Origin: Nakazawaea peltata
Lineage: Eukaryota > Ascomycota > Pichiomycetes > Alaninales > Pachysolenaceae
Reading direction: 5' to 3'
DNA length: 64,000 nt
Assembly: GCA_001599355.1 (NCBI GenBank)
Contig: BCGQ01000009.1
Span: 372,001-436,000 of the forward strand
Shown here one piece after another: positions 1-64,000 of the stretch (positions are counted from its first letter, which is position 1; each line of letters begins with the position of its first letter). Under the pieces are notes generated by a model. That model made no database searches, was not told the DNA's origin, and saw nothing but the letters and a program-made list of their open reading frames with translations. Made by a program: the position numbers and the translations under genes.

Positions 1-1045
1 GTTTAAGTTTCTTTCTTTCTTCTTCTTGACGCATCTCTTCCTCAGCCAGTTCCAATGCTTTCAGTTCTTCTTCTTCTCTTTTCAGTTTCAGTTTCAGAGC
101 TTCTCCTCCTGAGCCTCCATCCAGAGGCATCAGAGTAATCAAAGCGACGAACCCATCCTCATCAATGGCCTTAATTTTCAATTTCTTGATTTTGGCAACT
201 TTCGATGGACCCAGTTCTTCTCCAATCACGACTAAAGAAGTTTTACCACTAATACTTTTAGTGACACGAGCACCATATCTCTGGGCTAACAGTTCCAGAG
301 CAGTTCTTTCTAAAGTAGGAAGTATACCGGTGAACACAATAGTCAACCCTCCTAAACAATTAGGTGCTCCTTCAGGGATATCTCTAGTTCCAGTAGGAGT
401 AAGAGACAGTTGATTGGCTTTGAAATCCCTATATGACATTCCTTCAGTGCTTACTGCATCTGGTAATACAGCATCAGGAATAGTTTTCAACACCTCTTCA
501 GCACTAGGACCTTCAATTGGCGTTGGAGGTGGCATTGGCTGAGAAGCACGTTTAGGAGTAGCCAGTTTCTTAGGAGAGACCAGTTTCTTAGGAGTTGGAG
601 GAGCAGATTCTTTCTTTGGAATGACTCTCTTTGCTCTTGGACTCTTCTGAGTCGACGTCAGTTTGATTTCCTTAAGATCTTCCTCATCATCGTCTACAAA
701 TGCATCGTCCAGACCATCATCCATATCATCGTCACTCTCATCGCCGTCCATTTTAAAGTCTTCATCATCATCTTCGAGATCTGGTTCTTCTTCTTCGAAA
801 TCGTCATCTAAATCTAAGTCAATGACTTGTTTCTTTGGTGATGGTTTCGGTTTTGGTTTGGCTGTCAGTTTAGGTGGTTCTTCATGTTTCAATTTCTTAA
901 CCGCCAGAGTCTTGCTATTGCCAGTCGCCTTTCTCTTTCCAGTCTAAATAGTCGGTTAGTAACAAAGTGGTACGCTTTTTCGGATTTTTCATGTTAAACT
1001 CACCTTTGGCCCGGAATTCCCAAAGAAATCTCTAATATCAACCAT
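1..1045 (-). CDS. RFC1: Replication factor C subunit 1, N-terminal part (3' end outside window)
   Basis: Large subunit of the RFC clamp loader, which opens and loads PCNA on primed DNA in the nucleus. The coding sequence is exon 1 at 1004-1045 and exon 2 from 943 down past base 1. Exon 1 encodes 14 residues starting MVDIRDFFG, like the Rfc1 start MVxISDFFG. Then come a Lys-rich stretch, a long Asp/Glu-rich acidic region, Pro/Lys-rich linkers, and a BRCT domain at about residues 208-280 (NCLGGLTIVFTGIL, then GKTSLVVIGEELG). The AAA+ and C-terminal parts lie beyond the window. The gene is divergent from RUD3, and two MCB boxes lie in the shared promoter, as expected for an S-phase gene. Family and BRCT are clear; the rest of the protein is not visible. 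Confidence 0.93.
944..1003 (-). other. RFC1 intron, 60 nt
   Basis: On the minus strand it begins GTGAGT, has TTACTAAC about 18 nt before the acceptor and ends TTTAG. Removing it joins MVDIRDFFGNSGPK to TGKRKATG in phase 0. Confidence 0.9.
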
Positions 1046-1113
1046 AATTGACCAATATCCTGTCGATACTCAACCTCTGGGTAGTCTCATCAGATCAGAT
1101 CTTTTCCCGCAAG

Positions 1114-1119
1114 ACGCGT
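1114..1119. promoter_or_regulatory. MCB box ACGCGT, 69 bp upstream of RFC1
   Basis: Exact palindromic MluI cell-cycle box, bound in yeasts by the Swi6-Mbp1 (MBF) complex to drive G1/S genes. Its place upstream of a clamp-loader gene fits that role. Confidence 0.7.
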
Positions 1120-1303
1120 TTTGTACAAAAAATCGAGTGAAAAACCGAGGGCTCATGCGCAGCTCGCTTGGTAAGAAAAACTCTGAAAAAGATCCTTCTC
1201 AGTGCTAATTTTGACAGCCAAGTGAGCGTACAAAAAATGAGTTTTTATGATTTTTCACAGAGTAAGAAAAGTTTCATCCGCGCAACTACACACAAAATCA
1301 ACT

Positions 1304-1309
1304 ACGCGT
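1304..1309. promoter_or_regulatory. Second MCB box ACGCGT in the RFC1-RUD3 intergene
   Basis: Exact second copy, 259 bp from the RFC1 start and 172 bp from the RUD3 start. MCB boxes often act in groups. Which gene it serves cannot be told from sequence. Confidence 0.55.
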
Positions 1310-1453
1310 GCGGCGTTTTCTCAGTCTGCCTGTGCGCAGTCTCGCTCAGTGCTCAGTTTGGCGCTGTGCCAGGTTTCGTTGGCTCCTTTTCGCTTGTTTA
1401 AGCAGGTCCAAACAAAAAAGAACAACTGGTCTAAATCAGAAGCGAGAACCGTG

Positions 1454-1465
1454 ATGGCTAAGTGA
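1454..1465 (+). promoter_or_regulatory. Upstream ORF of RUD3 (Met-Ala-Lys-stop)
   Basis: An ATG 28 bp before the RUD3 start opens a three-codon frame that ends in TGA. If the transcript starts upstream of it, it would lower or tune RUD3 translation. The transcription start is unknown. Confidence 0.35.
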
Positions 1466-1481
1466 AGATAGTTGGGATACA

Positions 1482-2882: not shown

Positions 2883-3127
2883 ATAATAAATTAATAATGA
2901 ATTCTTTCTAGAAGTGTTTTGTAGGCATTTTGTACTCTCTTTGATGCACTTCCCCCCTTCAATTCCCTACTTATTGTCCATCCCCTTCAATTATCTACCC
3001 TCCCTCTTCCTTCCCCACGCTTCAAAACTATCAATTTTCAATGAAAAATTCATCAACTCAAAAGAGAAATCGTTCACTCACCACTTGGAGTCTACCCAAA
3101 AGAGTACAGAAAAGACCAGATCACAAA

Positions 3128-3755: not shown

Positions 3756-3960
3756 TCTTGGCAACCGGACTTCCCGCTTTACTTCGAGACTCGTTTCTTC
3801 CTCGTTCCCTCGTTCCTAACGGCCCGCCATTATTGCTCACGCATAATACGATAACGAGAAGCGCAGAAATTTAACTATAAATTGCTTGTTAGCACCTGTG
3901 TATAGATAATTAGATCCATCAATTGAGTATATTAATTAAGTAATAGTAGTCTAAGTGAAG

Positions 3961-4773: not shown

Positions 4774-4826
4774 ATCGCTCAGTTTCTGTATAATTCATTA
4801 AACTTGATTTTAATAATAACTTTGTA

Positions 4827-5960: not shown

Positions 5961-8900
5961 TTAATCATCATCCATTTCACTTGGCTTCAATAAACCACCA
6001 ACCTTAGCTGCCAGCTCTCTTTCAGTTCTTTGCAGCTCTTGTTGCTCGCTTTCTTTATCATCGGCAAACAAGTAATCAGTAGCATCTCCTCCAACTTGTT
6101 TGATTTGAACAAGGAAATCTCTTAAAGTGAGTTTGAATTTAGTCTGGTCTTGGTATTGAGAGATCAACAGTTTGATGAAATTGGAAACTTGATCCGTTTG
6201 TAAGTGGCTGAACGCATTAATCAACATATTACCAAGGTATTCTCCCAAGAATGTCTTGTTGGTGGTTCCAGCTGGAACTGTATCTACAGGGAATAAAGGC
6301 TCGGTAATGATGTTCAGCTCGACCAATTCAATCAATTTAGCCAACAATTGCAGTTGTAATCTGAATCCAGATTTATGATCCGAGTCGGTCAAGACGAAGA
6401 ATGTGTCACTCAAGATAGGGAAATAGAAGTTTTGATAAAACGCTGTGGTGAAGGGAGTAACACCCAAAGATTCCACGTTCTTTAACAACTCAATAGCCAA
6501 TTGTAAACCGGAACTCTCAACATCTCTATTGGTATGCTTGAAAGCCCATAAGATACTATCAATGAATTGCTTGAAAATAGGACCTGGAAGTTGTAGAAGA
6601 GCAGGGAAATTCTTGATGTTGACTTCCCTTAAAAGTTTATAGAATTCGGTTCTATGCTCTGGGTACTCGGTGAAGTCCTTGTTGATCATATCCAAAGTAC
6701 ATTCAAAGACACTGCCCATGATTTGAACAACTTGTTCAGGGATCATATGACCAACTTTATCAACCAAAGTAGTCATACAATTCAAGACTTCGGCATCACG
6801 AGCATCTGGGACATTGCTATTATAATCTTCCAAGACGGCTACTAATAATGGAGTTACGATTGTCTTAACGATATCGTCCAAATTGTCAGCCTTAGCAACA
6901 TAGGTCTCGAATAATTTCAAGATCTCTTTCTTGATAGTTCTTAAACCACGAACTTTTGGAGTCTTTGTAGCAATGACACCATCACTCAGAACAGCGTTGG
7001 AAATCATACCACTGACAGCTTTATAAAGAGACAATAAATCAAGATAAATCTCTGAAAGTTGAGGATAAAATCCAGGTCCGAGAGATGTACAAACGGCAAC
7101 ATTGGTCTTGATGATATTAGCAATGATCTTAACAGTCTCGGTGTTGGTTAAAATATCAGGGTTGTTGGAGGATTGTTCGACAATAGCTCTCCAAGCAAAG
7201 TTTGGTAATGACATCAACTCACTCAACAAATTATCTCTGACTTGTTTAGAAGGTTGAGCACTAATTATACAACCACAAGCTTCGTAAAAAGTATGAACTT
7301 GTTGCGGAGCCAAATCATCGGTAATGCTCTGAATGTTACGAATAATCTCATCAATGAAAGGCTCTCTTTCATTTGGCTGTAAAACAACGAAATGTCTCTT
7401 ACATTTTTGAGTGATCTTAATGAAAGTATCACAAGCCATATCTTGAACACCTTCATGAGTCTCATGCATGAACTCAAACAACTTGTTGACGACTGTCTTG
7501 AGGAATCTCCAATGCAGTTTCAAGAATCTTGGATATTGCCCAACAATGTACATGATATTCGAAGCGACAACAGCCTTGTTATCCTTACCTCTCTTCATCT
7601 CTGTCAAGGCCAATAAGTTCTTGATGGTGTTGACCAAGAATCTCTTCTCCATATCCTCATTCATAGTACCAGAGATAGATCCAATAGCCCAACATAAGGT
7701 ATTAATATTACGCCATGACCATTCACTTCCATCGATTTGCTTATCCAATTTGTCCGACATGATATTCTCGGTATCAACAACGTCTAAATGAGTCAAATAA
7801 ACCAAGATCTCTCTCATGGACTTGTATAATTGAATAGTATCACTTTCTTTAACGAATTCTCTAACGATTTCTCCCTCATCATTCTCTACAATCAAAACTT
7901 CTTCGGGTCTAACCATATTTTCGATAATAACAACACGTAATTTGGACAAAATCTCGGCGTATTGATGCTTTCTTAATGGGAATTTCGCCAAAATCTCAGG
8001 GTTAGGAGCTCCTCCAGCACTGGTAAGAGAATTTCCATAATTCAATTGCATCAATGGAGACAATTCTTGAGCTGGCAACTTCTGAATCTCAGTAAATAAC
8101 GAGTGAACTAATTTCAGCCAATAATCAAGACACACCTTAAACAACTCACGTTCTTGAATACGTGATAACGATATAAGATATTCATGACTAATCAAATTCA
8201 ATTCTCTCAATTCATGGTTATTCTCTAAAGGTAAGAGATGGTTGCCTAAGAAAGTAGTCAAGAACATAGCCAAATCTTGTAAGAAAGATTGGTCAGTGGA
8301 GTTGGCTTCCTCGTAACTCTTGTCAAGTTTAGTACCAGTTGGTAATATATTAGAAATCGACTCCATTGTTTGTTTGAACATAATAACAAACTTTGTATCG
8401 TATTGTTCAGCTACCAAAGAAGAGATCTCAGTGAGACATTTCAAAGTCACCGAACGGAATTCGGGATTGACCAAGAATTTAGTGGAGAGAAGGTTCAATA
8501 ACTCGGTCTCAAATATGAACACCAATGGGATCCAATGTAAATAACGTAATAAAGAGTTCAAAGTCGACACGATCAATGAAGGTTTGGTAGCTTTATCCAA
8601 TACCTCGAAACAAAGCTTGAAAATCTCAGCGAATTCCTCACTCATCTTGGTCTTTAAACTCTTAGCACGAGCTTGGGTGATTTGTTCCAGTGAGAAATCA
8701 AAAACCTCCTCACTCAACAACTTCAAAATCACCATGTTATTCTCACACACATTATAACCGGCACCACTGGATTGAACAATCTCCGGAATGAAAGTAGGCC
8801 AATTATCAGGCCAGTCTTGTTTGATGATCTGGACAAGCGTCAAATCACATTTGTTGATCAAAGCACGTTGGGACACGAAATTGGCATCGTCATCACACAT

Positions 8901-9200
8901 CAGAATGATCATATTGGCGATGAAATTACGGATGCCAAAACGCTGGTCTTGAGGTAAAACTTTCCAGCGCGTTTGGATCAATTTGTCTAAAATCGATAAA
9001 GCAATGTACTTGGCTTGAGAATCCTGTGAAAATTGCAAGATTTTATCGGCTCTTGTCCAAGCGTCAGGATGTTCTTGAAACTTGGTCAATACTTGCTGAG
9101 CCTGTTTCTGTTGCTCACCAGATCCTTTATAAAAGGTGGAAACCACCTGATCTAAGAGATTGATGTCTAAGTCTTTGCTGAAATCGAGGATTTGGTCCAT
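5961..9200 (-). CDS. CRM1: Exportin-1 (Crm1/Xpo1)
   Basis: The main nuclear export receptor. It binds leucine-rich export signals together with Ran-GTP. It has 1079 residues from [14 protein letters not shown]. cerevisiae Crm1 has 1084. The importin-beta N-terminal domain lies near residues 35-110, followed by HEAT repeats throughout and a C-terminal acidic tail ending SEMDDD. The groove helix region reads [33 protein letters not shown]. Its Thr533 (ACA, 7602-7604) stands where human XPO1 has Cys528. The frame stays open 76 codons upstream, but that part is low-complexity and absent from the family, so the ATG at 9200 was chosen. Confidence 0.97.
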
Positions 9201-13444: not shown

Positions 13445-14551
13445 ATGACCGAATTAGAGAGAGTCCCATTGGGTGTCACTGCCGACATGCATGTCCACTT
13501 GAGAGAAGGCAAAATGATGGAGTTGATCACTCCAACTGTCGACTCGGGATGTGTATCGATTGCCTACATTATGCCTAACTTGGTTCCACCTGTGACTACG
13601 ATCGACAAGGTGAAAGAATACCATGCTTCTTTACAAGCTCTCTCTCCAGAGACTACTTTTTTGATGACCTTTTATTTGTCCAAACTGTTGACTCCAGAAT
13701 TGATTGCCGAAGCTGCTGAACAGAAACTCATTCGTGGAATCAAATGTTACCCAGCAGGTGTCACTACCAATTCCGATGCTGGTGTCGATCCTAATGATTT
13801 CAGCCTGTTCTACCCTCTTTTTGAAGAGATGCAAAAACATGGTTTGATCTTAAATTTGCATGGAGAAAAGCCTCCTAGCAAGCAAGAGGAGACTTTAGAG
13901 AACGAAGATGATCATATCCATGTCCTTAATGCGGAGCCAAAGTTCTTGCCTGCTTTGTTCAAGTTGCATGCTGATTTCCCAAAGTTAAAGATCGTTTTGG
14001 AACACTGTACTACTCGTCTGGCTGTTGAAGCCATTGAGAAGATCAATCTGGACCGTCTGGCCGATGAACCGATCACTGTTGCTGCTTCTATCACTCTGCA
14101 CCATTTGAGTTTGACTGTCGACAGTTGGGCTGGAAATCCTGTTAACTTCTGTAAACCTGTAGCTAAACTTCCAAGTGATAAACTTGCTCTTGTTCAAGCT
14201 GCTTGTTCGGGTAAACCTTACTTCTTCTTCGGTTCCGACTCTGCTCCTCACCCTCTTGAAGCTAAAGCAAGACATGTAGGTGTTTGTGCTGGTGTATACA
14301 CCCAATCTCATGCTTTATCGTACTTGGCCGAGGTCTTTGATAAGGCTGGAAAGTTGGACAACTTGAAGGCTTTCGTCAGTGATAACGGGTTGGGATTCTA
14401 TGGCATCAAGAGTGAAGATTTGAAGTCTCAGAAAACTGCCTCCGTTGTTAAGAAAGCTGTCACTATTCCAGAGACCATTTCAGGTCATGGAATTGATGTA
14501 GTGCCTTTCAAAGCCGGTGAGACTTTGAGCTGGACTGCCGTTTGGGATTAA
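13445..14551 (+). CDS. URA4: Dihydroorotase
   Basis: Third step of pyrimidine synthesis: ring closure of carbamoyl aspartate to dihydroorotate, in the cytosol. 368 residues; S. cerevisiae Ura4 has 364. Visible motifs: ADMHVHLREG near residue 15 (HxH metal ligands and substrate Arg), GIKCYPAGVTTNSDAG near 99-114 with the lysine that is carbamylated in this class, LNLHGEKP, LEHCTTR, SITLHHL and FGSDSAPHP near 260. The CTG in SITLHHL at 14096-14098 stands where the family has Ala (TAHHL). A pyrimidine-rich promoter precedes it. Convergent with the BTB gene, with about 70 bp between stops. Confidence 0.97.
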   Translation: MTELERVPLGVTADMHVHLREGKMMELITPTVDSGCVSIAYIMPNLVPPVTTIDKVKEYHASLQALSPETTFLMTFYLSKLLTPELIAEAAEQKLIRGIKCYPAGVTTNSDAGVDPNDFSLFYPLFEEMQKHGLILNLHGEKPPSKQEETLENEDDHIHVLNAEPKFLPALFKLHADFPKLKIVLEHCTTRLAVEAIEKINLDRLADEPITVAASITLHHLSLTVDSWAGNPVNFCKPVAKLPSDKLALVQAACSGKPYFFFGSDSAPHPLEAKARHVGVCAGVYTQSHALSYLAEVFDKAGKLDNLKAFVSDNGLGFYGIKSEDLKSQKTASVVKKAVTIPETISGHGIDVVPFKAGETLSWTAVWD

Positions 14552-37559: not shown

Positions 37560-39263
37560 TTACTCATCCTTGAATGCTGGTTTACCCAAAGGAATGTATA
37601 CCGAGTTATATAAAGCATCATCATTGGTGACTCTTCCTAATAAATTACGAGTATCGACAAATTCTGGTCCTAACTCTTCCAATTTATTTACACCGAGCAA
37701 ACGCATTCCATTTTCGATCTCTTCTTTCAAATTGGAACATAATTTCTGGACACCTTCAGGTCCATATGTGGAATTGGAATAGAGGAAAGCACGTCCTAAG
37801 CCTACACCTTTAGCTCCTAAACATAACAGCTTCAAAACATCGGTTCCACGGGTCACACCTCCATCGATATATAATTCGATCTTCTTATCTAAACCTTTCT
37901 CTTTCAATAATGGAGTGGTTTCGGCCAAAACTTCCAAAGGAGCTCTAGCAAATTCCAATTGTCTACCACCATGGTTAGACAATACTACAGCATCTACACC
38001 ATGTTCCAGCAGAAGGACTACATCTTGAGGTCTCTGGATCCCCTTGATTACAATAGGAATATTAGTACGGCTCTTGAAGTCCAGAATATCTTTCCAAGTT
38101 AACAGGGTATCGATAAATGGAGATAACAGTTTCAGGGCACCTTGATCTCTGTTCAACGAGTCACCTTCTAAGATATCGGCATCGTCTTCGAATTTCAAAC
38201 GTCTATCTTTCTCTCTGTTTCCTAAGACAGGCAGATCTACGGTGATGAAGATTCCCTTGATGTTCTTCTCTTCACATTTCTTGATCAAATTGTAACTGAC
38301 CGATCTGTCTGGGTTGACGTACAATTGGAACCATTGCGACAGACCAGGGACACACAGATCGGTGATATCATCGAAGGAACAAGAAGCTAAGGTGGAGAAC
38401 ATTTGAATGATTCCAGAGCGACCACAACCTTTCAGAATTCCAACCTCTCCTTCTTCATGACCTAACTTGGCCAAGGCAGTAGCAGAACAGTAGAATGGAG
38501 CAGCTGTTGGGACTCCTAACATAGTGGTGGAGCAGTCAACTTCCTTAACATCGACAAGAATCTTTGGGTTGAAGAATACACGGTGGAACAGGTAATGGTT
38601 CTCTCTGTAAGTGATCTCATCATCAGCCAGAGAAGAATAATAGGCCCAGGCATTTGGGGGAAGAGTTTCTCTAGCAACATATTGGAAATCTTGGATGTTG
38701 AACATTTGTGATAATGGAGGCTTGTTCTCGACTCTCTCCAATCTCTCGATCTCCTCCTCGGATATCTCCTCTTCTTCTTCCGGTAACTCTCCGATCAACT
38801 TCCCAAGATGCTTTTCTTTTGGTAAGAATTTGTCTACGATATCTGGAGCATGAATTGGGTTGAAGATCTTCGAGGCATCTCTTCCCAGGTACCTTAAAAT
38901 GACCAGTCTTCCACCAGGATGAGAGTTCATGAACTCTGTCAAATCATAAACATTCCCATTGATCACTACCCAGACACCGGCATCAACAGTGGTGTGTTTT
39001 TGCAATTCTTCAACGGTGACTCCATTGGAGAAACTAATGGATTTTTCAGCATTTGCCTCGGCATCAGATTTCAAAATGAAACTGTCTTGCCAAATATATA
39101 CACTCAGCAAAGCTAAACCGGACAATCCGGCACTTAAAGTCCAAGCACGAGATTTTTCAGATTGAAAAGTGGCTCTTTTAAGAGAGCTGAAAGATCTAGC
39201 GGAGCTGAATGCTCGGGATACCGATCTCGAACGGACCAGCAATCTCAGTATAGGAAGCATCAT
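37560..39263 (-). CDS. CYB2: L-lactate:cytochrome c oxidoreductase (flavocytochrome b2)
   Basis: 567 residues; S. cerevisiae Cyb2 has 591. It oxidises L-lactate to pyruvate in the mitochondrial intermembrane space and passes electrons to cytochrome c. A presequence (MMLPILRLLVRSRSVSRAFSSARS) is followed by a hydrophobic sorting segment (AGLSGLALLSVYIW). A cytochrome b5 domain lies at about 85-160 with haem motif HPGG and, with CTG read as Ala, YAGRDAS. An FMN-dependent dehydrogenase barrel lies at about 190-560: TAAPFYCSATALAKLGH, QLYVN, FITVDLPVLG, IVIKGIQ, SNHGGRQLEF (catalytic His and substrate Arg) and IDGGVTRGTDVLKLLCLGAKGVGLGRAFLY. Convergent with TRP3. Confidence 0.96.
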   Translation of the reverse strand: MMLPILRLLVRSRSVSRAFSSARSFSSLKRATFQSEKSRAWTLSAGLSGLALLSVYIWQDSFILKSDAEANAEKSISFSNGVTVEELQKHTTVDAGVWVVINGNVYDLTEFMNSHPGGRLVILRYLGRDASKIFNPIHAPDIVDKFLPKEKHLGKLIGELPEEEEEISEEEIERLERVENKPPLSQMFNIQDFQYVARETLPPNAWAYYSSLADDEITYRENHYLFHRVFFNPKILVDVKEVDCSTTMLGVPTAAPFYCSATALAKLGHEEGEVGILKGCGRSGIIQMFSTLASCSFDDITDLCVPGLSQWFQLYVNPDRSVSYNLIKKCEEKNIKGIFITVDLPVLGNREKDRRLKFEDDADILEGDSLNRDQGALKLLSPFIDTLLTWKDILDFKSRTNIPIVIKGIQRPQDVVLLLEHGVDAVVLSNHGGRQLEFARAPLEVLAETTPLLKEKGLDKKIELYIDGGVTRGTDVLKLLCLGAKGVGLGRAFLYSNSTYGPEGVQKLCSNLKEEIENGMRLLGVNKLEELGPEFVDTRNLLGRVTNDDALYNSVYIPLGKPAFKDE

Positions 39264-46592: not shown

Positions 46593-47852
46593 ATGGAGAA
46601 CCAGATGCTGAGTCAGGAGCTGGGGTTTCAGCAGCAGCAGCAACCACAGCAGTCACAGCAACAACAGAACACTGCACAGGATTATAGTCATTTACAACCA
46701 CAACAACAGTACCAACAGTACCCACAACAGCAGCAACAACAGCACCAGCATGGACAGTATCAACAATTCCTGCTGCCACAGGCTCATATTCCAGCGCCGG
46801 CGCTGCCACAACCAATGATTTCATCTCAACTACAACTTCACCAACATTCAACTCCACCTGTACCCAAACTTCAACCAAGACAAACTAAGGGTAAATATAA
46901 TATCAATGACTTTGATATATTGAGGACTTTGGGAACAGGATCATTTGGAAGAGTTCATTTGGTCAAATCCGTTCATAATCATCGTTTTTATCTGATGAAA
47001 GTACTAAAGAAATCCCAAGTAGTCAAGATGAAGCAAGTCGAGCATACCAAAGATGAGCGTAAGATTCTCTCGTTAGTGCAACATCCGTTCATCATTAAGA
47101 TGTGGGGGACATTCCAGGACTCGAATTCTGTTTTCATGATCATGGATTTCATTGAAGGAGGTGAACTTTTCACCTTACTTCGTAAATCCAAAAGGTTCCC
47201 TAACCCAGTTCTGAAATTCTACCTGCTGGAGATTTGTCTTCTGCTAGAATATTTGCATTATCATGGCATAGTATACAGAGATCTTAAACCCGAGAATATT
47301 TTACTCGATAGACATGGGCACGTCAAATTGACCGATTTTGGATTCTCCAAAGAGGTCTCCAATATCACTTATACTTTATGTGGAACCCCAGATTATATAG
47401 CTCCAGAAGTCATCGCTTCCAAACCGTACAATAAGAGTGTGGATTGGTGGTCTTTTGGGATTTTGATTTTCGAAATGTTATCGGGACACACACCATTTTA
47501 TGACCAGAGTCAGATTAAGACGTATGAGAACATTTTGGAATGTAACTTGAAGATCCCAAGTGGGTTCAATGCTGATGTTGCCGATTTACTCACTCAGTTG
47601 ATCACCAAAGATATCACCGAGAGATTAGGTAACTTGTCCAATGGTTCTACCGATGTTAAGAACCATGTTTGGTTTAGTGAGGTGGTATGGGAGAATTTGA
47701 TCAATGGAGGTATCGAGAGTCCCTATGATCCTCCAATCGAATCTGGTGTTGGAGATACTTCTCAATACGATACTTATCCTGAATTGGATCATCTTGACTA
47801 TGGTACTACATCGGTGCCGGATGAATATGGACACCTATTCACAGAATTTTAG
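46593..47852 (+). CDS. TPK2: cAMP-dependent protein kinase catalytic subunit (Tpk-like)
   Basis: 419 residues. Residues 1-100 are Gln-rich with Pro and His, as in yeast Tpk proteins. The kinase domain is at about 105-360: [11 protein letters not shown], lysine loop, [11 protein letters not shown], activation loop [14 protein letters not shown] with the phosphorylated Thr, and a C-tail [14 protein letters not shown]...[10 protein letters not shown] ending HLFTEF. The AGC-kinase tail and FxxF end are whole. Five CTG codons fall where Tpk proteins have Ala: 46992 (YAMKVLKK), 47211, 47223, 47226 and 47241 (NPVAKFYAAEVCLALEYLH). The first lines the ATP pocket. Upstream TTG in frame is not a likely start. 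Which Tpk paralogue it is cannot be settled. Confidence 0.93.
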
Positions 47853-47908: not shown

Positions 47909-50041
47909 TTATAACTTTTCAAAATCACTGTACAAGTTGAAGAATCTAGAGCTTTCCCATTTGAAAGCACCGGATTTGAGGAACTTTTTAGATGGAGCAT
48001 CGTTATCCAAGATAGCCAAGTTCCCTACAGCAATCAATGATCTGTAAGCTACCTCGGAATCTGGAACTAAGACTTCTTCTTTCATTAAATCGGCCAATTT
48101 AGGAAGTAAATCCAATCCATGATTTGAAAGATTGTATGTAGATACATTTAAGAACAAAGTGGCCAAACTCAAGGTCAATTTCTTGTTTGGAGGTATCGAC
48201 ATTACTGTTTTCAATAAATTTCCCGATAATAATGGTTTAAGAGTTTCATGGGAAATATTACATAAGATTTTTAATGTCAAATTGACAATATTGATGTTAT
48301 CGGAGGTCAATCCAGCTTCTAAAATAGCTGGGTCGATCTTTGAGATCAATTCTGGGGTCAAAAATTTGATGATTGATCTGAGGAAATCGAAAGCAAACAC
48401 CTTGTTCTGGAATTTAGTATGGAAGTAGAGCCATTGTTCAAGTAAAAGTTCACTTTGATGTTGTAAAAACATCACTTTTAATTCGGTCAATTGAGTAGTC
48501 GATAATTGAATTCCTTCCTGTTCCGATCCGTTCACTTTCTGGATATTGCTGAAATCGATCAATTTCCCAAATTGTAAACGAATTGTTTGAGGTATAACAT
48601 TCATATTTTGTTGCAGTTGGGCTGGATTACGATCCAGGTAAGGATTATCCAAAGCTGAGTTTGAGGTATCGGCTCCTCCCAATTTAACACCCTGTGTATT
48701 GTTCAAAATAAACCTAACAACCTCCTCTTGATAAGATTGAGGCAATTCATGTCTCTCTAAAAAGTTCAGCAGAACAACGTATGGATTATCAGTGACGTTA
48801 AACAGCAATTTCAAAGGAGGTGCACCATCTTTGATATCGACATCAAACACATAATCATAGAATTTTCCGTCATATTCTTCCTTCTTCTCCTTTCCAGATG
48901 AGCCAACAACTTCTCCAATCTTAATCCACTCGGTACCAGACCATTGATGAGCTTCGATTATTCCAGTTGGCAATTTCACCATAATTGTCTGACCCTCTTT
49001 AGATCCCAGTTGCTGTAACAGTTCAGGGCCTGGGATTTTCTCTTTATTCAAATTGTCTACCGAGTTTTCATTAATAGCGGAATTTTGAACATCTTCTTTA
49101 AAACGTAATTGAACTTCCTCTGGAGCCATTCTTTCCTCTGATTTGGTGAAAATACGTATTTTCGAGTCACTGGTGCCGACAACAAGATCATCATTAGGTT
49201 GAACAGTGACATCCCATACAGAAATACAAGGGAAAGTGATCACTTGAGCACAAGTATCTCCTTCATTAGTCCAAATTCTAACAGTCCGATCTTCTCCACT
49301 ACTAACAATGTCACCATTTGATAATAATGCCAAAGAATAAATAAAACTATCATGGGCCTCGATAGATTTCAAACATTCACCACTGGAAATATTCCAAAAT
49401 TTGATAGTTCCATCATTAGAGCAACTAACAAAGTTCTCTGCACCTGGTAAAAGAAGCAAATTTCTAACAACATCTTTATGACCAATGAATTCCCTAACTT
49501 TATGATCACCTTGCCATAAAAAGATCTTCAGATCGGCACCAGCAGTCAAGAAACTGTCCTTACTGACGATCTTGACGTCCCAAACTGAACCCAGATGACC
49601 AACTAAATCGTATTTCAACTGGAAATTTTCCCATACTTTAGCAGTTCTATCCCATGACCCACTAATTATCAACCCAGTCTCGTCAGAAGAGTCCAAAGCA
49701 CACACATTTGCCTCATGGCCAACTAATACAAAGGAAGGCTCTGTAAAGGGGGCGGATTTCAATTCGGTCACATTAATAACTTTTTCTTTGCCCCCGCTCA
49801 CAACATACTGGGCGCTATCATCATTTTCGTGTAAAATACTCACGCAATTGATGAATTGATTTTCAGGTGATTGGTAATGAATTAAATTGGCCCATTCGCC
49901 ACTGATGGGATCTTTTGACCAAAGTCGTACTGTGGCGTCACGGGAACAACTTACAATTGAGTCTGGTGAGAGCGCTTTCACGGCTCTCACATCTTGATCA
50001 TGGCCGTCTAATGACGCCGATAACGTGTATGGTATAGACAT
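47909..50041 (-). CDS. DOA1: Doa1/Ufd3 (PLAA), WD40-PFU-PUL ubiquitin cofactor
   Basis: 710 residues; S. cerevisiae Doa1 has 715. It is a Cdc48 cofactor that binds ubiquitin and keeps free ubiquitin levels up. Residues about 1-300 are a seven-blade WD40 propeller (LDGHDQDVRAV, SCSRDATVRLWSKD, ISGSWDRTAKVWEN, SCSNDGTIKFWN, SSGEDRTVRIWT). The PFU domain lies at about 340-450 (GSKEGQTIMVKLPTGIIEAHQWSGTEWIKIGEVVG). The PUL armadillo-like domain, which binds Cdc48, fills the last 230 residues. Divergent from SAC1 over 313 bp. TGTGGCGAA, a weak Rpn4-element match, lies 24-32 bp upstream. Confidence 0.95.
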   Translation of the reverse strand: MSIPYTLSASLDGHDQDVRAVKALSPDSIVSCSRDATVRLWSKDPISGEWANLIHYQSPENQFINCVSILHENDDSAQYVVSGGKEKVINVTELKSAPFTEPSFVLVGHEANVCALDSSDETGLIISGSWDRTAKVWENFQLKYDLVGHLGSVWDVKIVSKDSFLTAGADLKIFLWQGDHKVREFIGHKDVVRNLLLLPGAENFVSCSNDGTIKFWNISSGECLKSIEAHDSFIYSLALLSNGDIVSSGEDRTVRIWTNEGDTCAQVITFPCISVWDVTVQPNDDLVVGTSDSKIRIFTKSEERMAPEEVQLRFKEDVQNSAINENSVDNLNKEKIPGPELLQQLGSKEGQTIMVKLPTGIIEAHQWSGTEWIKIGEVVGSSGKEKKEEYDGKFYDYVFDVDIKDGAPPLKLLFNVTDNPYVVLLNFLERHELPQSYQEEVVRFILNNTQGVKLGGADTSNSALDNPYLDRNPAQLQQNMNVIPQTIRLQFGKLIDFSNIQKVNGSEQEGIQLSTTQLTELKVMFLQHQSELLLEQWLYFHTKFQNKVFAFDFLRSIIKFLTPELISKIDPAILEAGLTSDNINIVNLTLKILCNISHETLKPLLSGNLLKTVMSIPPNKKLTLSLATLFLNVSTYNLSNHGLDLLPKLADLMKEEVLVPDSEVAYRSLIAVGNLAILDNDAPSKKFLKSGAFKWESSRFFNLYSDFEKL

Positions 50042-50354: not shown

Positions 50355-52046
50355 ATGCCTCTTTTGATCACTCATTTGCCTGAAGGATACTTAGTCAAAG
50401 GTAATACAAGTTCAATTCTTGTCACTAATACCGGTGTTTCCTCCGTCGACCCAGAGAAACTCTCCTTCAATTACACGTTTTCTCAAGTCGATGGGATTAT
50501 CGGTATTATCAATTTGAAGGCCAACAGATATTTGATCACTATTGATAGCAGTGTCGAGACTGGTCTGATTAGTACTCATAAAGTATTACAAATGACCAAA
50601 TTCTCCGTCTTACCTATCGGCGTTATCAACCGTAATGAAGAAGACAGACAATATTTATCATTATTGAACCAACATTTGACCAATGCTACGTTATTCTACT
50701 CGAAGAGTTATGATTTGACCAATAGTTTACAAAGACAATCTCAATTGGCCATTGATGGTGTCGATTTGAGTAAATTAGATGACCGTTTCTTCTGGAATCA
50801 TTACTTGTCTGAGCCATTATCCGAGTTCCCAGAATTTGTCACTCCGTTGATCTACGGTTATGTTAAGACTATTCAAACTTCTATCATGACTCATCCTATC
50901 CAGTTTGGTATCATCACTAGACGTTCCAAATGGAGAGCCGGTACTAGATATTTCCGTAGAGGTGTCGATGAATATGGTAACGTTGCCAACTTCAATGAGA
51001 CTGAACAAATCTTGGTTCTGAATGGTGAGATGTTTTCTTATTTGCAAACTAGAGGTTCTGTCCCTACTTATTGGGCTGAAATTAATAATTTGAAATATAA
51101 ACCAGAATTGGCCATCAATGATTCCAGTTCTATGCCTGCTACTCAAAAACATTTCGATCAACAAGTGGCCATCTATGGTAAGAATTATTTAGTTAATTTG
51201 GTCAACCAAAAGGGTTACGAAAAGCCTGTCAAGGACAGTTATGAGAGAAGTGTCGAACAGTTGAACAATAACATGGTTCAATATGTTTATTTTGACTTCC
51301 ATCATGAATGTCGTGGAATGAGATTTGGTAGAGTTTCAATCTTATTAGAACATTTACTGCAATTAGGTTACTCAAACGAAGACTTCTTCCATACTACTTC
51401 AGAACTGGTTATCTCTGTTCAGAATTCTGTCGTCAGAACTAACTGTATGGATTGTTTGGATAGAACCAACGTTGTCCAGTCTACATTAGCCATGTGGATG
51501 TTAAAGACTCAATTACTGAAAGTAGGAATTAATACTATCGACAACAAATTCCAATTCCAATTCCAAAATATCTGGGCTGATAATGCCGATTTCGTGTCAA
51601 AACTGTATTCAGGTACTGGAGCTTTGAAAACCGATTTCACAAGATTAGGTAAACGTACTAGAATTGGTCTGTTGAAAGATCTTCAAAACTCCATCGTTAG
51701 ATATATCAAGAATAATTACTATGATGGACTGAGACAAGATGGTTATGATTTGTTCCTTGGACTGTACCAACCACTGACTGAACATTCCAATCCATTCCAT
51801 GATTCTCGTGGTGTACTAATCCAGTCGATTCCAACTGCTCTTTGGTCATCTTTTGGTGTCTTGGTTTGTTCCCTTCTTTATCCGCTGGGTTCATCTTCTT
51901 CTTGGATCATCAACTTGATTTCACTCTCCATCTTCGTCTCCACCCTCTACTACATCATCACTCATCACAAACTTTATGTTAATTGGCCTAAACTTATCCC
52001 TGTTCATACTTATGTCAAGGGTTCCTTCTCCTCTAAGAAAGACTGA
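50355..52046 (+). CDS. SAC1: Sac1-like phosphoinositide 4-phosphatase
   Basis: 563 residues; S. cerevisiae Sac1 has 623. It removes phosphate mainly from PI4P in the ER and Golgi. The SAC N-domain lies at about 1-150. The catalytic domain runs to about 440 and holds the CX5R motif NCMDCLDRTN with Cys364 and Arg370. Also seen: RRSKWRAGTRYFRRGVDEYGNVANFNETEQI, FDFHHECRGMRFGRV, and FTRLGKR. Two membrane segments at about 495-540 (LWSSFGVLVCSLLYPLG, SWIINLISLSIFVSTLYYIIT) anchor it with a short cytosolic end, KGSFSSKKD, whose last Lys residues fit COPI-type ER retrieval. The overall shortening is in linkers. Divergent from DOA1. Confidence 0.96.
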   Translation: MPLLITHLPEGYLVKGNTSSILVTNTGVSSVDPEKLSFNYTFSQVDGIIGIINLKANRYLITIDSSVETGLISTHKVLQMTKFSVLPIGVINRNEEDRQYLSLLNQHLTNATLFYSKSYDLTNSLQRQSQLAIDGVDLSKLDDRFFWNHYLSEPLSEFPEFVTPLIYGYVKTIQTSIMTHPIQFGIITRRSKWRAGTRYFRRGVDEYGNVANFNETEQILVLNGEMFSYLQTRGSVPTYWAEINNLKYKPELAINDSSSMPATQKHFDQQVAIYGKNYLVNLVNQKGYEKPVKDSYERSVEQLNNNMVQYVYFDFHHECRGMRFGRVSILLEHLLQLGYSNEDFFHTTSELVISVQNSVVRTNCMDCLDRTNVVQSTLAMWMLKTQLLKVGINTIDNKFQFQFQNIWADNADFVSKLYSGTGALKTDFTRLGKRTRIGLLKDLQNSIVRYIKNNYYDGLRQDGYDLFLGLYQPLTEHSNPFHDSRGVLIQSIPTALWSSFGVLVCSLLYPLGSSSSWIINLISLSIFVSTLYYIITHHKLYVNWPKLIPVHTYVKGSFSSKKD

Positions 52047-52303: not shown

Positions 52304-53559
52304 ATGACTAGAATTGTGCCTACATCTGCTACAGTAAGTAAAGAGAGAGAGATGTTGGGAGAGCTGGAGTTACTAACCCCCATTAGTTGAGAAAGAAGAA
52401 GACCTTGAAGAAGAGCATCAACTTCACGTTGTTGGTCGTGGGTGAGAGTGGCAGTGGTCGGTCGACGTTTATCAATTCGTTCTGCGATCAAGATATTGTA
52501 GAACTGTCTACTACGATTCCATTGCCAGATGACTCTGACTTGCCAAAACGTGAGCTCACACTTCGTAAATCCATCGTTGATATGGAAGATGATGAGGGTG
52601 CTAAGATCTCGTTAAACATTATTGACACGCCAGGCTTCGGTTCATCTCTCGATAATGAGTTCAACTTTGATATGATTGTCGATTATATCAAGCATCAATA
52701 TGATGAGACTCTTTTTGAGGAGAGTCGTTTGAAGAGAAATCCACGTTTCAAGGATGGTAGAGTTCATTGTTGTTTGTACTTCATTAATCCAACTGGACAT
52801 GGATTGAAGGAGATGGATGTCGAATTTTTGAAGAAGTTGGGAGGTTTAGTTAATGTTGTTCCTGTTATTCTGAAGGCTGATAGTTTAACTCAACAAGAAT
52901 TGGCATGGAATAAGAAACTCATCAATGAGGATATTGTCCACCATAAGTTACCAATCTACAAGTTTGACGAATATTTGTACGATGAGGATGATGTTGACGA
53001 TGAAACTTTGGAATTGAACTCTGCTTTGATGAGAACTATTCCATTCCTGGTGATGGGAGCCAATGGTGTTGTTGCTGACGAAGTTTCTGGGGCTAGAAAG
53101 AGAGTTAGAAAATATCCATGGGGATCTGTCGATATTGAGGATAACGAGATTTCGGATTTCACTACTTTGAAGGCCACTTTATTAATCACTCATTTAAATG
53201 AGTTCAAGGAAAGAACACATGAAATTTTGTATGAGAATTACAGAACCTTGGCCTTGAGTTCTGAAGAATACAAGGTTGATCTGACTGGTACTGGAATCAA
53301 TGGAGCTTCTGGAGCTGCATCTGTTTCTGGCACTCCAAATATTGGAGCTTCTAATGGTAGTGTTCCAGGCACCCCAGTTAGTGGAGTTCCAGATTATAAA
53401 GCTTTGGAGAGACAAGCAGAATTGGAGAAGGAGAGATTGGATGCTTATGAAAGACGTATCAATGAGTCGATTAGACAGAAAGAACGTGAGATTGCTGCAA
53501 GAGAGCTGGAATTACAGCTTATCCAAGAGCAATTGCGTTTACAGAGTGAGGTTTCTTAA
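52304..53559 (+). CDS. CDC11: Septin Cdc11
   Basis: Spliced gene with exons 52304-52333 and 52387-53559, 400 residues. S. cerevisiae Cdc11 has 415. Septins form filaments at the bud neck; Cdc11 caps the octamer. Exon 1 gives MTRIVPTSAT and exon 2 LRKKKTLKKSINFTLLVVGESGSGRSTFINSFC (basic patch and P-loop); DTPGFG, NPTGHGLKEMDVEFLKKLG, and AKAD-type G4 with CTG at 52870 where septins have Ala (PVIAKAD). The septin unique element follows with KYPWGSVDIED. A Gly/Ala/Ser linker and a C-terminal coiled coil (ALERQAELEKERLDAYERRINESIRQK) end it. The start in exon 1 is needed for the ALRKRKHLKRG match in the family. Confidence 0.95.
52334..52386 (+). other. CDC11 intron, 53 nt
   Basis: Begins GTAAGT, carries TACTAAC at 52371-52377 and ends CCCATTAG, only 9 bases after the branch point. 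Phase 0 between SAT and LRKKK. Confidence 0.93.
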
Positions 53560-59456: not shown

Positions 59457-59475
59457 TCAATATTCAATACTATCC

Positions 59476-59476
59476 N
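59476..59476. other. Ambiguous base N
   Basis: One undetermined base in the DUF2470-LOC1 intergene. It affects no coding sequence. Confidence 0.99.
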
Positions 59477-59530
59477 CCTTTATTTGATATTCTGTAAACG
59501 ACCTTTTTTATATGCCCTTCCTTTTTTTTT

Positions 59531-59574: not shown

Positions 59575-59635
59575 GTTGATGGTTGGAGTTGAAGAGACGA
59601 CTGTTTGAGAGAAGTGTACAGGTATAGACGTTAAT

Positions 59636-60247
59636 ATGGCACCAAAACAGAGCAAGACCGCCAAAAGAGCGAAAACTCAAAATAAAACCAGACAAGTTGA
59701 GTCAGAAGTTCAGACTGACTCTCTTCTGAGAAATCTCTTACTGAATCAACCTAATTTGACACCAAAGTCTACTAAGCCAAAGGAGAGTAAGAGTCGTGAA
59801 AAGAAAAGATTGAAGAAAATCAGCTTGTACGGAAAGAAATCCACCAAAGAATATGACGAGAAGGATTTGGATATCCCAAAATTGAACAAACTGATTAATC
59901 CAGGTGTGATAGTTAAGAAGGGGAAGAAGAAGGGGAAGAAGTTTATTGATGATAATGATAGTCTCACTTTGACGAGATTAATTAAACAAATTAATGACTC
60001 AAAAGACTCTCTTGATGAAAGTAAATTGGAAAAGCTGAAAAGATTGGAAGAAATCAGAGAATTGAAGCGTCAAGAATTGGAGAGAAAAGAGAAGGAGAAA
60101 CTGTCTAAAGTAGAGGACAAGAAACTTGAGTTGAAGAATAAGGCCAGTCTGGCTAGACTTCTGAGAAGAAAGAATGCTAAAGCTCTTACGAAGGCTACTG
60201 CTGCAGGAGAAGTTTCTTCCAAGAAGAAGAAGGTCTCTTTTGCTTAA
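59636..60247 (+). CDS. LOC1: Loc1, 60S assembly and ASH1 mRNA localisation factor
   Basis: 203 residues; S. cerevisiae Loc1 has 204. Nucleolar RNA-binding protein needed for 60S assembly and for ASH1 mRNA localisation. It matches over most of its length: [75 protein letters not shown], and the end KKKKVSFA. Very Lys-rich, mostly helical with no folded domain. Two CTG codons fall on family Ala: 59891 (LNRAIVPG) and 60035 (EKARRLEEI). The promoter has PAC, RRPE-like and CACGTG sites. Convergent with the GH92 gene, 25 bp between stops. Confidence 0.95.
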
Positions 60248-60272
60248 TTCCCATTTGTATATTATGATTGCA

Positions 60273-62672
60273 TTAAACTGTTCCTATAAAATCGTATTCT
60301 GTAGTTGAGTTGACCGGGTGTGTCACCTTGAATATAGTACCATTTGAGTTGGTGTATTTTTCGTAATGTCCTGGACTTGGCGGTTCTGAATCTTGTTCCC
60401 ATTGAACCGGATTTGGTCCAAGTTCGAAATGTAACCATGTACTTTTAGCATCTTTTGGGAATAATTCATCATGGGTCAACCAATTGCGGTACAAACGAAC
60501 ACCATTCAAGATGACACTCTCGACATAATAATCCGAAGTGAAATTGAGACTGTTAGCAGTGACTTCTAATATCGACCCATCTCTCTTTATAGAACTATAT
60601 GGCAAGAATGGAGACAGCATTAAATAAGTCGTAGTCCCCAGAATTGGATACAACCCGATCATTGACCAGTATAACCACAGCTGCATAGCACCGGCATCGG
60701 AGTTTCCTGGTAATCCAGCAGGCCCAAGATGGTAATGGGTATTAATAAGGTATCTTATGGTCTCTACCGTCTTGTACTGTTGGTTTACGAAATTATAAAG
60801 AAAGGGGGTTAGGAAACTTGGCTCATTTCCGATATCGGCAAATGCTCGACCATTGAGACCAAACATATCGTCTAGTCTTCGTACGAAGGTGTCATTGTCA
60901 CCAATGAAATTATGAAGACTCTTTATATCATGAGGAACAGCCCATCCATATTCGATAGGTAAACCTTCATATTCGTCTTCTCTCCAATAACAATTTCCAC
61001 AATGAAGGGGGTCATAGTTAAAAGTGTCAAATTCACCATTGGCTTTCTTGGGTTGAACAAATCCTGTATAATCTAATTCTGGACTCGTAGCATTGAAATT
61101 CCAAATGTTTTGCCAATTCAGTGAGCGATCAAGAAACTTGGCCAGTTCTTCTTCTTTACCCAAAGCTTTAGCAATTACACTGATTGCGTAATCATTATAA
61201 GAATATTCCAAAGTTCTAGTGACGGATCTGGTGAAATTTCTAGTGACATATCCATATTCTATCCATTCCAATACACCCCCACGACCTTCTTTAGTAGACA
61301 GTTCAGGACTATAAGAATCATATATATATGGCAGAACTTCTTCGGCATCTTTTTTCATGGCCAGAAGCAGATCATTCCAATTAATATGACCATCATCGAT
61401 ACCTTTCAAATACAGGTCCAGAATCAATATCTCAGCATTACTACCACCTTGGGTTCTTCCATTCTGATTCAGAGATCTTCCATCTGGCATATACCCATCA
61501 TACCTATAAATATCGATGAGACTTCTAATTAACTCGGCACCTCTTTGAGGATTCAAAACATTATATAATGGGTTCAAACATCTGAAAGTGTCCCAAATAG
61601 TGAACCAATCATCGTAATATGGTTCTGAGGAATTCCAGCCTGGGTTCTCTCCTGTTCTCTCACTTGGTAATAAATGGGCTCCATAAAGCAGGGTGTATAT
61701 CATTTGGGCTACTGTCTCATTATCAGTAGCTATATCTACCTTATTGAAAACTTCATCTTTCCACCTTTGTTTGGAATTCTCCAATACCAGATCGAAATCA
61801 TACTCATTGATCTCGCCAATATTCTGACACAGCTTTGCCTCAGATTTAAATGAAATTCCAACTCGACTTTTAATATGTTTAGTTCCCTTGGGGAATTTGA
61901 AAACTAATCCCATAGATCCATCTTTCTTATCTGAAGATACTCTATAATTATTTTCCGTGGCCACTTGATCTTGGAATCCTGATATTGTTTCTATTGGGGT
62001 ATCAAAATCTCCACAGAAGAAAATACTCCATGGATCTTGTTCTCCCCACCCCCCTGTTAATGTGGTGTTCCCTGTATAATACTTAAATGAAGTTGAATTA
62101 TTTTCAAAATGGGCTTCTACATGACCCCCTACAAAATATTGTGTCCACCATGGCCTCTGAGGGGCTATCAAATGCAGCGAACCATTCACGATAATTTGGA
62201 TATCCTGCTCTGTATTATTAAAATGGTACTGGTAAATTCCAGACCTATTCAGCAGAGCTAATTCGACGTCAATTCCAGAATCGAAAAATGTATGATAATA
62301 TCCAGGATACGCTTCATCTGGTTTTAAATTTCTAGTTTGGTACAGTTGGGTAGTATAATCGATATTTCCAACATATGGAAGTTGCAGAGCGACTCCATAT
62401 TGAGGCAGCCCTCCAGTTCCGGATTCGTGCATCATAGAAATAGCCACCACTTTCCCTTCTGGAGCATATCCAGAATACAGATCTCCAAAGGGGTAATCTA
62501 TGACGTCGACCCCCATTTTGACCATTCCAAAAGGTCTGGTAGAACCGGGGAAAACATTTCCTCCATTGATGGTGCCAAAGAAAGGGTCAACCATCAGAGC
62601 TGGATCTTTAAAAGAGAAAGAATCTACCAATCCGAACCATATCAGAAGCAGTATAACTAACATTTTGCCCAT
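60273..62672 (-). CDS. GH92 alpha-1,2-mannosidase, secreted
   Basis: 799 residues from MGKMLVILLLIWFGLVDSFSF, a signal peptide of about 20 residues. GH92 enzymes are exo-alpha-mannosidases, calcium dependent, and trim mannose from mannoproteins or N-glycans. Signatures: DPFFGTINGGNVFPGSTRPFGMVKMG at the start, GYAPEGKVVAISMMHESGTG, YDDWFTIWDTFRCLNPL and the GNSDAGAMQ.WLYWSMIGLYP motif near the end. The CTG at 60678-60680 stands where the family has Ala (GQMSAW). Many NxS/T sites suggest heavy N-glycosylation. Common in bacteria and filamentous fungi and absent from S. cerevisiae. The neighbouring partial gene is a paralogue. Confidence 0.92.
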   Translation of the reverse strand: MGKMLVILLLIWFGLVDSFSFKDPALMVDPFFGTINGGNVFPGSTRPFGMVKMGVDVIDYPFGDLYSGYAPEGKVVAISMMHESGTGGLPQYGVALQLPYVGNIDYTTQLYQTRNLKPDEAYPGYYHTFFDSGIDVELALLNRSGIYQYHFNNTEQDIQIIVNGSLHLIAPQRPWWTQYFVGGHVEAHFENNSTSFKYYTGNTTLTGGWGEQDPWSIFFCGDFDTPIETISGFQDQVATENNYRVSSDKKDGSMGLVFKFPKGTKHIKSRVGISFKSEAKLCQNIGEINEYDFDLVLENSKQRWKDEVFNKVDIATDNETVAQMIYTLLYGAHLLPSERTGENPGWNSSEPYYDDWFTIWDTFRCLNPLYNVLNPQRGAELIRSLIDIYRYDGYMPDGRSLNQNGRTQGGSNAEILILDLYLKGIDDGHINWNDLLLAMKKDAEEVLPYIYDSYSPELSTKEGRGGVLEWIEYGYVTRNFTRSVTRTLEYSYNDYAISVIAKALGKEEELAKFLDRSLNWQNIWNFNATSPELDYTGFVQPKKANGEFDTFNYDPLHCGNCYWREDEYEGLPIEYGWAVPHDIKSLHNFIGDNDTFVRRLDDMFGLNGRAFADIGNEPSFLTPFLYNFVNQQYKTVETIRYLINTHYHLGPAGLPGNSDAGAMQLWLYWSMIGLYPILGTTTYLMLSPFLPYSSIKRDGSILEVTANSLNFTSDYYVESVILNGVRLYRNWLTHDELFPKDAKSTWLHFELGPNPVQWEQDSEPPSPGHYEKYTNSNGTIFKVTHPVNSTTEYDFIGTV

Positions 62673-62856
62673 CAAAAGACTAACAAAATTAATATCTTTA
62701 CTACACGAAAATATATATATAAAATTCTAACATTTGAACTAATTGTTGGTGTAATCCCCTCACCTCTCATTAAGCTGTCCCGTTATTATCTGATTATTTG
62801 GATGCTTCTGTAAGCTTATAAAAAAGGGATATTATTTTTGTATGTGAGTACGATTA

Positions 62857-62876
62857 TTGCCCTTTTTGAAGGGCAA
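62857..62876. promoter_or_regulatory. Inverted repeat TTGCCCTT-TTTG-AAGGGCAA
   Basis: Perfect 8-bp arms around a 4-base loop, 185 bp upstream of the GH92 start. Confidence 0.5.
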
Positions 62877-62961
62877 GTTTTCGTCAATACAATAAAAACA
62901 TTGCTTTTTTTCGATTAAAGCTTTTTTGATTGTATTTTAGTGTGGGAAAAGGGAGTGAGAA

Positions 62962-62980
62962 AAGGGCATTTTATGCCCTT
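62962..62980. promoter_or_regulatory. Inverted repeat AAGGGCA-TTTTA-TGCCCTT
   Basis: Perfect 7-bp arms with the same GCCCTT/AAGGGC half-sites as the previous one but in reversed order, 86 bp further from the GH92 gene. Confidence 0.5.
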
Positions 62981-63477
62981 AAAAACTGAAGTGAGGCATA
63001 TTTTTTTAGATTATACAAAAATATGTAATATTTAGAAGCACTGTAAGTAGACTTTCCGCGATATTATGACCCCCCAACAGCTGATCCTTCCTAATCTGGT
63101 TTTGGTCATCCCTAGATTTCCAAGACTTCTCCGGGATCTAACAGCGTCTAATAGTCTTGTCAACCGCTTTTCTTATATTGTATTCTTCTGCTTTTCGCGT
63201 TAATATGTATAGACGAACGCGGGGCTTCCCTCAGACAATAGACCTTGAACATTTTAGTACTACAACTGGGGCGTCAGACGTGCATACGATTGTGTTAGAG
63301 ATACGCTTACAGAATATAGAGTGACCAGTATTCTTTAGTTATTCACGCATTATTTTTTAGCTGCTTAGAATGGGTACAGATCTAAAATAGTCTGGATTTT
63401 TAGGCAGAATTTTAGATAAGCCTAGTGAGTCGTGTGAGTGGACCTTCTCATACATTGTGTATTCTCCATCCTCGATA

Positions 63478-63559
63478 CATTCTCCATTCTCCATTTTCCA
63501 TTCTCCATTCTCCATTCTCCACTCCCATTCCCTTACATTCTCCATTCTCCATTCTCCAT
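63478..63559 (+). repeat. 7-bp minisatellite CATTCTC, about 10 copies
   Basis: Runs of CATTCTC interrupted by variants (CATTTTC, CACTCCCATTCCCTTA). Flanking single copies lie at 63471 and 63465. Confidence 0.85.
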
Positions 63560-63683
63560 GCATTGTACATTCCCATAGATTCTAACCTCCATCTCTCCCT
63601 TCCATACAATACTCTCCCCTACATTCCTACACTCTCTATATTAATTATCTATCTCGTTATAAGCTAAGATTTCTAAATAAATA

Positions 63684-64000
63684 TTAAATTAAAGAGTAAT
63701 GACCTGGACTTGGTGGAACATCTCCAGATTCCCAAACTGTTGGTTCACTACCTAACTCGAAATGAATAGAACCTCCATGAGCAAACAAATCCTCATGGCT
63801 GACCCAGTTCTTATTCCATCTTTGACCATTGACAGTAACAGATTGGACATAGAAATCGGTCTCAAAGTTATCACTATTAGCAGTGATTTGTAATTTTCTA
63901 TTTCTGTCACCATCGACGTAGATAGTAACAGAAGGAGCAAATGGAGCCAGAAGTAAGTATGTAGAAGTAGCAGAGACAGGGTAAATACCAATCAAAGACC
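63684..64000 (-). CDS. Second GH92 alpha-mannosidase, C-terminal end only
   Basis: The last 104 codons of a gene whose start lies beyond the window. LIGIYPVSATSTYLLLAPFAPSV matches MIGLYPILGTTTYLMLSPFLPYS of the neighbour; NWVSHEDLF matches NWLTHDELF; FELGSEPTVWESGDVPPSPGHY matches FELGPNPVQWEQDSEPPSPGHY. It ends at SLI, about 20 residues sooner than the neighbour. Tandem paralogue in the same orientation, diverged well beyond a recent duplication. The rest of the gene must be seen to judge whether it is whole. Confidence 0.85.
   Translation of the reverse strand, partial: SLIGIYPVSATSTYLLLAPFAPSVTIYVDGDRNRKLQITANSDNFETDFYVQSVTVNGQRWNKNWVSHEDLFAHGGSIHFELGSEPTVWESGDVPPSPGHYSLI

Follow-up and report, generated by a model that had tools for sequence, protein, structure and literature searches.

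Decoding of CUG as alanine was reported in 2016 in Pachysolen tannophilus and was then extended to Nakazawaea and Peterozyma, according to the part of PMC5951914 that deals with these genera; the same work analyzed 18 yeast species by mass spectrometry, taken from key points in the tree. In the passages that touch on it, later papers treat the CUG-Ala code as settled (PMC11415595, PMC11540330), and the pertinent text of a Codetta screen of 462 species states that the known distribution of CUG meanings was confirmed (PMC8629427). Nakazawaea and Pachysolen both belong to the order Alaninales in the NCBI taxonomy. Here, the meaning of CTG is analyzed in a 64,000-nucleotide stretch of the Nakazawaea peltata genome (the window; C9:372001-436000 of an assembly of 11.63 Mb in 11 contigs), together with tRNA genes found in the rest of that genome. 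The nuclear genome to which the window belongs almost certainly uses the CUG-Ala code (NCBI table 26), with a CAG tRNA of alanine identity. This code is already described in kind, and the preliminary description of the window, which read CTG as alanine, was right to call it established for Pachysolen and Nakazawaea (PMC5951914).

As in the published accounts of the CUG-Ala code of Pachysolen, Nakazawaea and Peterozyma (table 26), CUG corresponds here to Ala, and a CAG tRNA with alanine features is present. The CUG-Ser1 code of the Candida clade shares the reassignment of CUG from Leu and a CAG tRNA with G37, which is present there in nearly all species as far as the published account goes; however, that tRNA is a serine tRNA, whereas the one found here is of alanine type with a short variable loop. 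CUG is also reassigned in the CUG-Ser2 clade (Ascoidea, Saccharomycopsis), but the relevant section of PMC5951914 describes a serine tRNA with A37, mostly beside a retained tRNA-Leu(CAG), and neither was seen here.

In clades with changed codes, CUG is relatively rare and tends away from conserved sites, according to the same section (PMC5951914). In contrast, CTG is frequent in the window: 28 open reading frames (ORFs; 30 listed minus two nested) hold 320 CTG among 15,849 codons, or 20.2 per 1000, and the aligned regions described below hold 18.0 per 1000. If read as Ala, CTG makes up 28.8% of the Ala codons in the 28 ORFs. The GC content is about 40% in this genome and about 30% in Pachysolen tannophilus.

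CTG codons opposite homologous residues

Protein translations in which X replaced CTG served as queries against solved structures. Ten domain alignments were used, in which we take seven partners to be from Saccharomyces cerevisiae and three to be bacterial. The counts cover CTG within these ten alignments, without the last three sites of CRM1 and the seven sites of DOA1 beyond its WD40 alignment; 76 CTG stand opposite a residue and three opposite a gap, all three in the GH92-like protein. The residue is Ala in 33 cases, Ser, Asp, Glu and Lys in six each, Gly and Thr in three each, Leu in one, and any other in at most two. In the same alignments, GCN codons face Ala in 86/187 and Ser in 11/187 cases, Ser codons face Ser in 124/283, and Leu codons other than CTG face Leu in 268/400. 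The rate at which CTG faces Ala (33/76) is close to that of GCN. Ala was opposite CTG in 24/48 cases in the seven yeast alignments and 9/28 in the three bacterial ones.

Scored against background, the CTG sites fit the Ala codon class at +66.6 bits, the Ser class at -3.7 and the Leu class at -170.5, which places Ala ahead of Leu by 237 bits and of Ser by 70 bits. A three-way mixture fit gave 89% Ala, 11% Ser and 0% Leu, the upper bounds being 28% for Ser and 6% for Leu. When all 61 sense codons were tested in this way, 59 were standard (a few rare ones by <3 bits), CGC was undecided (n = 4), and CTG was assigned to Ala, 24 bits over Ser. The outcome named beforehand as refuting, CTG mainly opposite Leu or Ser, was looked for and not found.

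That CTG keeps its standard meaning of Leu, with the pattern arising from chance or selective reading, has a vanishingly small probability, since Leu faces CTG once in 76 cases versus 268/400 for the other Leu codons. The same comparison bears out the earlier remark that conserved leucines in these proteins use other codons. A serine meaning of CUG, known from the Candida (Ser1) and Ascoidea (Ser2) clades, is the second-best fit, with Ser opposite 6/76 CTG, and is nonetheless very improbable: the Ala class leads by the 70 bits given above, and GCN codons face Ser at a similar rate to CTG.

A Pfam scan of fourteen gene products under tables 26 (CTG = A), 12 (CTG = S) and 1 gave 24 domain matches, with summed scores of 4041.6 bits for Ala, 3984.0 for Ser and 3890.9 for Leu. 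Ala is ahead of Leu in 22 matches and level in two; CRM1_repeat_2 and CRM1_repeat_3, among the 24 matches kept, contain no CTG. Ala and Ser score too alike to be told apart in the DOCK-like and SAC1 domains and in several of those of CRM1. Four overlapping secondary matches were excluded (PK_Tyr_Ser-Thr, Glu_synthase, Peptidase_C26 and Kinase-like), of which the first two score best with Ala and Peptidase_C26 differs by at most 0.2 bits.

Elsewhere in the genome, family motifs were searched in thirty loci around DEAD-box matches (30/38 matches), not all of which are independent genes. At the Ala of motif II (DE[A]D), CTG occurs in 3/21 matches when only Ala or CTG is admitted; with any residue admitted, the codons are CTG in 3/23, GCN in 17 and others in three. 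Under the standard code, three loci would have DELD for DEAD. The Ala of motif Ia (PTREL[A]) is encoded by CTG in 4/18 cases (13 GCN, 1 GTT), and the Leu of this motif by CTG in 0/18, all being TTG, TTA or CTT. In motif V, the Ala before RG is CTG in 2/14; one position earlier, CTG occurs in 1/14 and Leu codons in 3/14, which says little.

The tRNA with anticodon CAG

A strict pattern for a CAG tRNA matched six genome sites, versus two in a reversed control, and ARAGORN placed a tRNA with anticodon CAG at one of the six:

C4:81426-81498 (L034:1470-1542), outside the window: tRNA, anticodon CAG (ARAGORN)

The sequence of this tRNA matches the genome only at its own site. Its variable loop is 5 bases long, and it carries G3:U70 and A73. 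Of the sampled tRNAs, only Ala AGC, Ala TGC and the CAG tRNA have G3:U70, and an unpaired 6:67 is common to these three and Val TAC. In the tabulated part of PMC9976931, G3-U70 is a eukaryotic alanine element, and a large variable region is given for Leu and Ser. The short variable loop, G3:U70 and A73 thus point to alanine identity. The preliminary description had proposed a search for a tRNA of this kind; the gene is present, and its charging with alanine is predicted.

In the mechanism that we propose, the CAG tRNA would be expressed and charged with alanine by alanyl-tRNA synthetase (AlaRS), an enzyme that requires no particular anticodon bases. The charged tRNA would then pair with CUG, leading to incorporation of Ala, and the tRNA-Leu genes found in the genome (AAG, CAA, UAA) would serve the leucine codons. 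Expression, charging and incorporation are inferred here.

The likeness to alanine tRNAs differs among the parts of the molecule. The acceptor stem is closest to Ala AGC (11/15, the best among the sampled tRNAs), as are the variable loop (5/5, Met likewise) and the T arm (14/17, Glu likewise). The D arm matches Gln (15/16) and Val TAC (15/17) better than Ala (10/16), the anticodon stem matches Val TAC and Glu in 7/10 positions versus 3/10 for Ala, and the anticodon loop matches Leu AAG in 6/7. Position 37 is G, versus A37 in both Ala tRNAs. If the molecule is a mosaic, resembling tRNA-Ala in its acceptor stem, variable loop and T arm, tRNA-Gln or tRNA-Val in its D arm and tRNA-Leu(AAG) in its anticodon loop with G37, then mutating the anticodon of a tRNA-Ala would not by itself account for the code change, and charging may be with Ala plus a little Leu; we regard this as a speculative and improbable account. 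A literature search for the Pachysolen CAG tRNA, including its position 37, found no sequence for comparison.

Competing tRNAs were sought with further patterns. A long-arm pattern had 17 genome matches versus two in its control, comprising eight Leu tRNAs (CAA 5, UAA 2, AAG 1), seven Ser tRNAs and two chance-like matches, as judged by reading and ARAGORN; the anticodon CAG occurs in 0 of the 15 tRNAs among the 17. A looser CAG pattern had 64 matches versus 63 in the control, and ARAGORN found no tRNA with anticodon CAG at any of the 64 sites; a third had 11 versus 14 in the control, none tRNA-like by eye. Across four patterns and ARAGORN, no tRNA-Leu(CAG) or tRNA-Ser(CAG) was found, in searches that might miss genes whose boxes are atypical or whose intron is long. 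The second refuting outcome, that only a Leu or Ser tRNA carries CAG, was thus not encountered in these non-exhaustive searches. This argues against the standard code, for which the Leu label given by ARAGORN to the CAG tRNA may be cited, although that label reflects a standard-code reading of the anticodon. Against serine stand the absence of a long variable arm from the CAG tRNA and its A73, versus G73 in the Ser tRNAs of this genome.

Two further candidates were rejected. L139, for which ARAGORN gave the labels Leu(AAG) and Val(GAC), is by resemblance presumably an intron-bearing tRNA-Phe, with CAG inside the intron. L168, called Val(CAC), was read as an intron-bearing Leu(CAA) by its likeness to the long-arm Leu(CAA) matches. 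The 17 long-arm matches include no tRNA-Leu(UAG), and Leu AAG might read CTA via inosine; CTA is the rarest of the CTN and TTR codons in the 28 ORFs (37 occurrences versus 161-615 for the others). The window contains no tRNA gene in an ARAGORN scan of its 64 kb, and no Rfam match at gathering score.

CTG sites in individual genes

Genes of the window that are discussed here are as follows:

46593..47852, plus strand: PKA catalytic subunit (TPK), 10 CTG
35700..37169, plus strand: TRP3 (glutamine amidotransferase and IGPS), 12 CTG
37560..39263, minus strand: CYB2 (flavocytochrome b2), 18 CTG
13445..14551, plus strand: URA4 dihydroorotase, 6 CTG
5961..9200, minus strand: CRM1/exportin-1, 10 CTG
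60273..62672, minus strand: GH92 glycosidase-like, 25 CTG
52582..53559, plus strand: CDC11 septin, 3' part, CTG at 52870 and 53047
50355..52046, plus strand: SAC1 phosphatase, 11 CTG
47909..50041, minus strand: DOA1, 9 CTG
59636..60247, plus strand: LOC1-like ORF (so named in the preliminary description), in-frame CTG at 59891 and 60035

The preliminary description had selected sixteen sites in these genes, and all sixteen are in-frame CTG codons. Its statement that they stand at Ala positions holds for 13/14 sites compared outside the LOC1-like ORF, at which the top-ranked homologue has Ala, and fails for CDC11 52870, where the homologue has Ser. Six unrelated proteins do have CTG opposite Ala (PKA, TRP3, URA4, CYB2, GH92 and CDC11), in agreement with that description. 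To call these alanines family-invariant was an overstatement, as 52870, 14096, 36531 and 36612 vary between homologues: 52870 is opposite Ser in 5ar1 (the yeast orthologue), Ala in 8dkt and Thr in 8pfh; 14096 is opposite Leu in one dihydroorotase, 3pnu; and in 1a53, 36531 is opposite Lys and 36612 opposite Gly. The hand-picked list is dispensable for the conclusion; every CTG within the ten alignments was counted.

All five CTG in the PKA kinase domain (46992, 47211, 47223, 47226, 47241) are opposite Ala in 1fot (yeast PKA), and the Pfam Pkinase scores are 248.8, 241.1 and 238.2 bits for Ala, Ser and Leu, the order used throughout this section. The IGPS alignment of TRP3 holds seven CTG, of which 36531, 36582, 36612 and 36756 are opposite Ala in 6bma and the other three are not; the two in the amidotransferase alignment are opposite Glu and Lys. 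The corresponding Pfam scores are 291.9/283.6/272.5 bits for IGPS and 197.8/195.7/197.3 for GATase. Fifteen CTG of CYB2 align with 1fcb, nine opposite Ala, two opposite Ser, one each opposite Asp, Gly, Gln and Glu, and none opposite Leu (FMN_dh, 367.3/352.9/344.5 bits). The six of URA4 face Ala twice (13805, 14096), Ser once, Asp once and Lys twice in 6l0a.

Seven CTG of CRM1, among the part of the alignment listed, face Ala in four cases and Ser, His and Asp in one each (CRM1_C, 445.7/445.2/437.4 bits). In the GH92-like protein, 60678-60680 is opposite Ala in 6f8z and 62387 is the sole CTG of the 76 opposite Leu (432.3/419.7/406.7 bits). CDC11 53047 is opposite Ala, and the Septin scores are 281.6/278.9/273.2 bits. 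Three CTG of SAC1 are opposite Ala and none opposite Leu in 4tu3, and Syja_N scores 281.0/281.4/280.1 bits, with Ala and Ser not separated. The two CTG in the WD40 alignment of DOA1 face Asn and Lys and are uninformative. The LOC1-like protein has no match in the Pfam scan.

The start of the CDC11 ORF appears to lie too far downstream, as a P-loop-like GESGSGRST is encoded upstream in the same frame (window 52330-52582). By reading, GTAAGT stands at 52334 and a TACTAAC box at 52371, followed by AG and then by GESGSGRST, and a 5' intron in CDC11 is likely from these sequence signals. At the left edge of the window (2-751, minus strand), an open ORF that is RFC1-like by eye is unusually rich in CTG (15/250 codons). 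A 2144-amino-acid ORF at 16635-23069 (minus strand), NUM1-like by eye and consisting mostly of diverged repeats, contains 45 CTG. The sole N in the window is at 59476.

Weighing of the readings and their meaning

Several observations weigh against decoding of CTG as alanine, or against its being exclusive. CTG occurs in 0/21 cases of SAT in motif III of the DEAD-box loci (16 GCN). The site data leave room for up to 28% Ser, and Ala exceeds Ser in just 14 of the 24 Pfam matches, three being level and seven favouring Ser by at most 1.6 bits; both points speak for serine. One excluded secondary match, Kinase-like, favours Leu by 1.1 bits, as the standard code would have it. The non-exhaustive tRNA census scored 63 of 608 first-look candidates and did not list the CAG tRNA. 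Over its whole length, the CAG tRNA has 52 identities with Ala AGC, 52 with Val TAC and 54 with the longer Leu AAG. It also carries A35, G37 and A73, which are named as yeast leucine determinants in the relevant passage of PMC8629427, so that some leucine charging is possible on the sequence.

These three bases raise the alternative that CUG is mostly Ala with regulated or low-level Leu, which we consider unlikely, though less so than the other alternatives. In Candida albicans, a 3% leucine charging of the CAG tRNA is ascribed to G37 in the corresponding passage of PMC5951914. However, the eukaryotic leucine identity elements in the table of PMC9976931 include a large variable region, which the CAG tRNA does not have, and the site data give 0% Leu with an upper limit of 6%, a measure blind to low-level misincorporation. 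A row of the same table seemingly gives G37 in yeast tRNA-Ser as an antideterminant for leucyl-tRNA synthetase (PMC9976931).

Decoding of CTG as alanine, as first proposed for this window, is borne out by the site statistics in the window, by DEAD-box loci in other parts of the genome and by the one CAG tRNA found, which has alanine features. CTG occupies sites as an alanine codon would, and the genome contains a tRNA gene with CAG, G3:U70 and A73. Annotation under the standard code is wrong at every CTG, that is, at 320 codons in the 28 counted ORFs, and table 26 is the one to use for gene models, phylogenies and expressed proteins.

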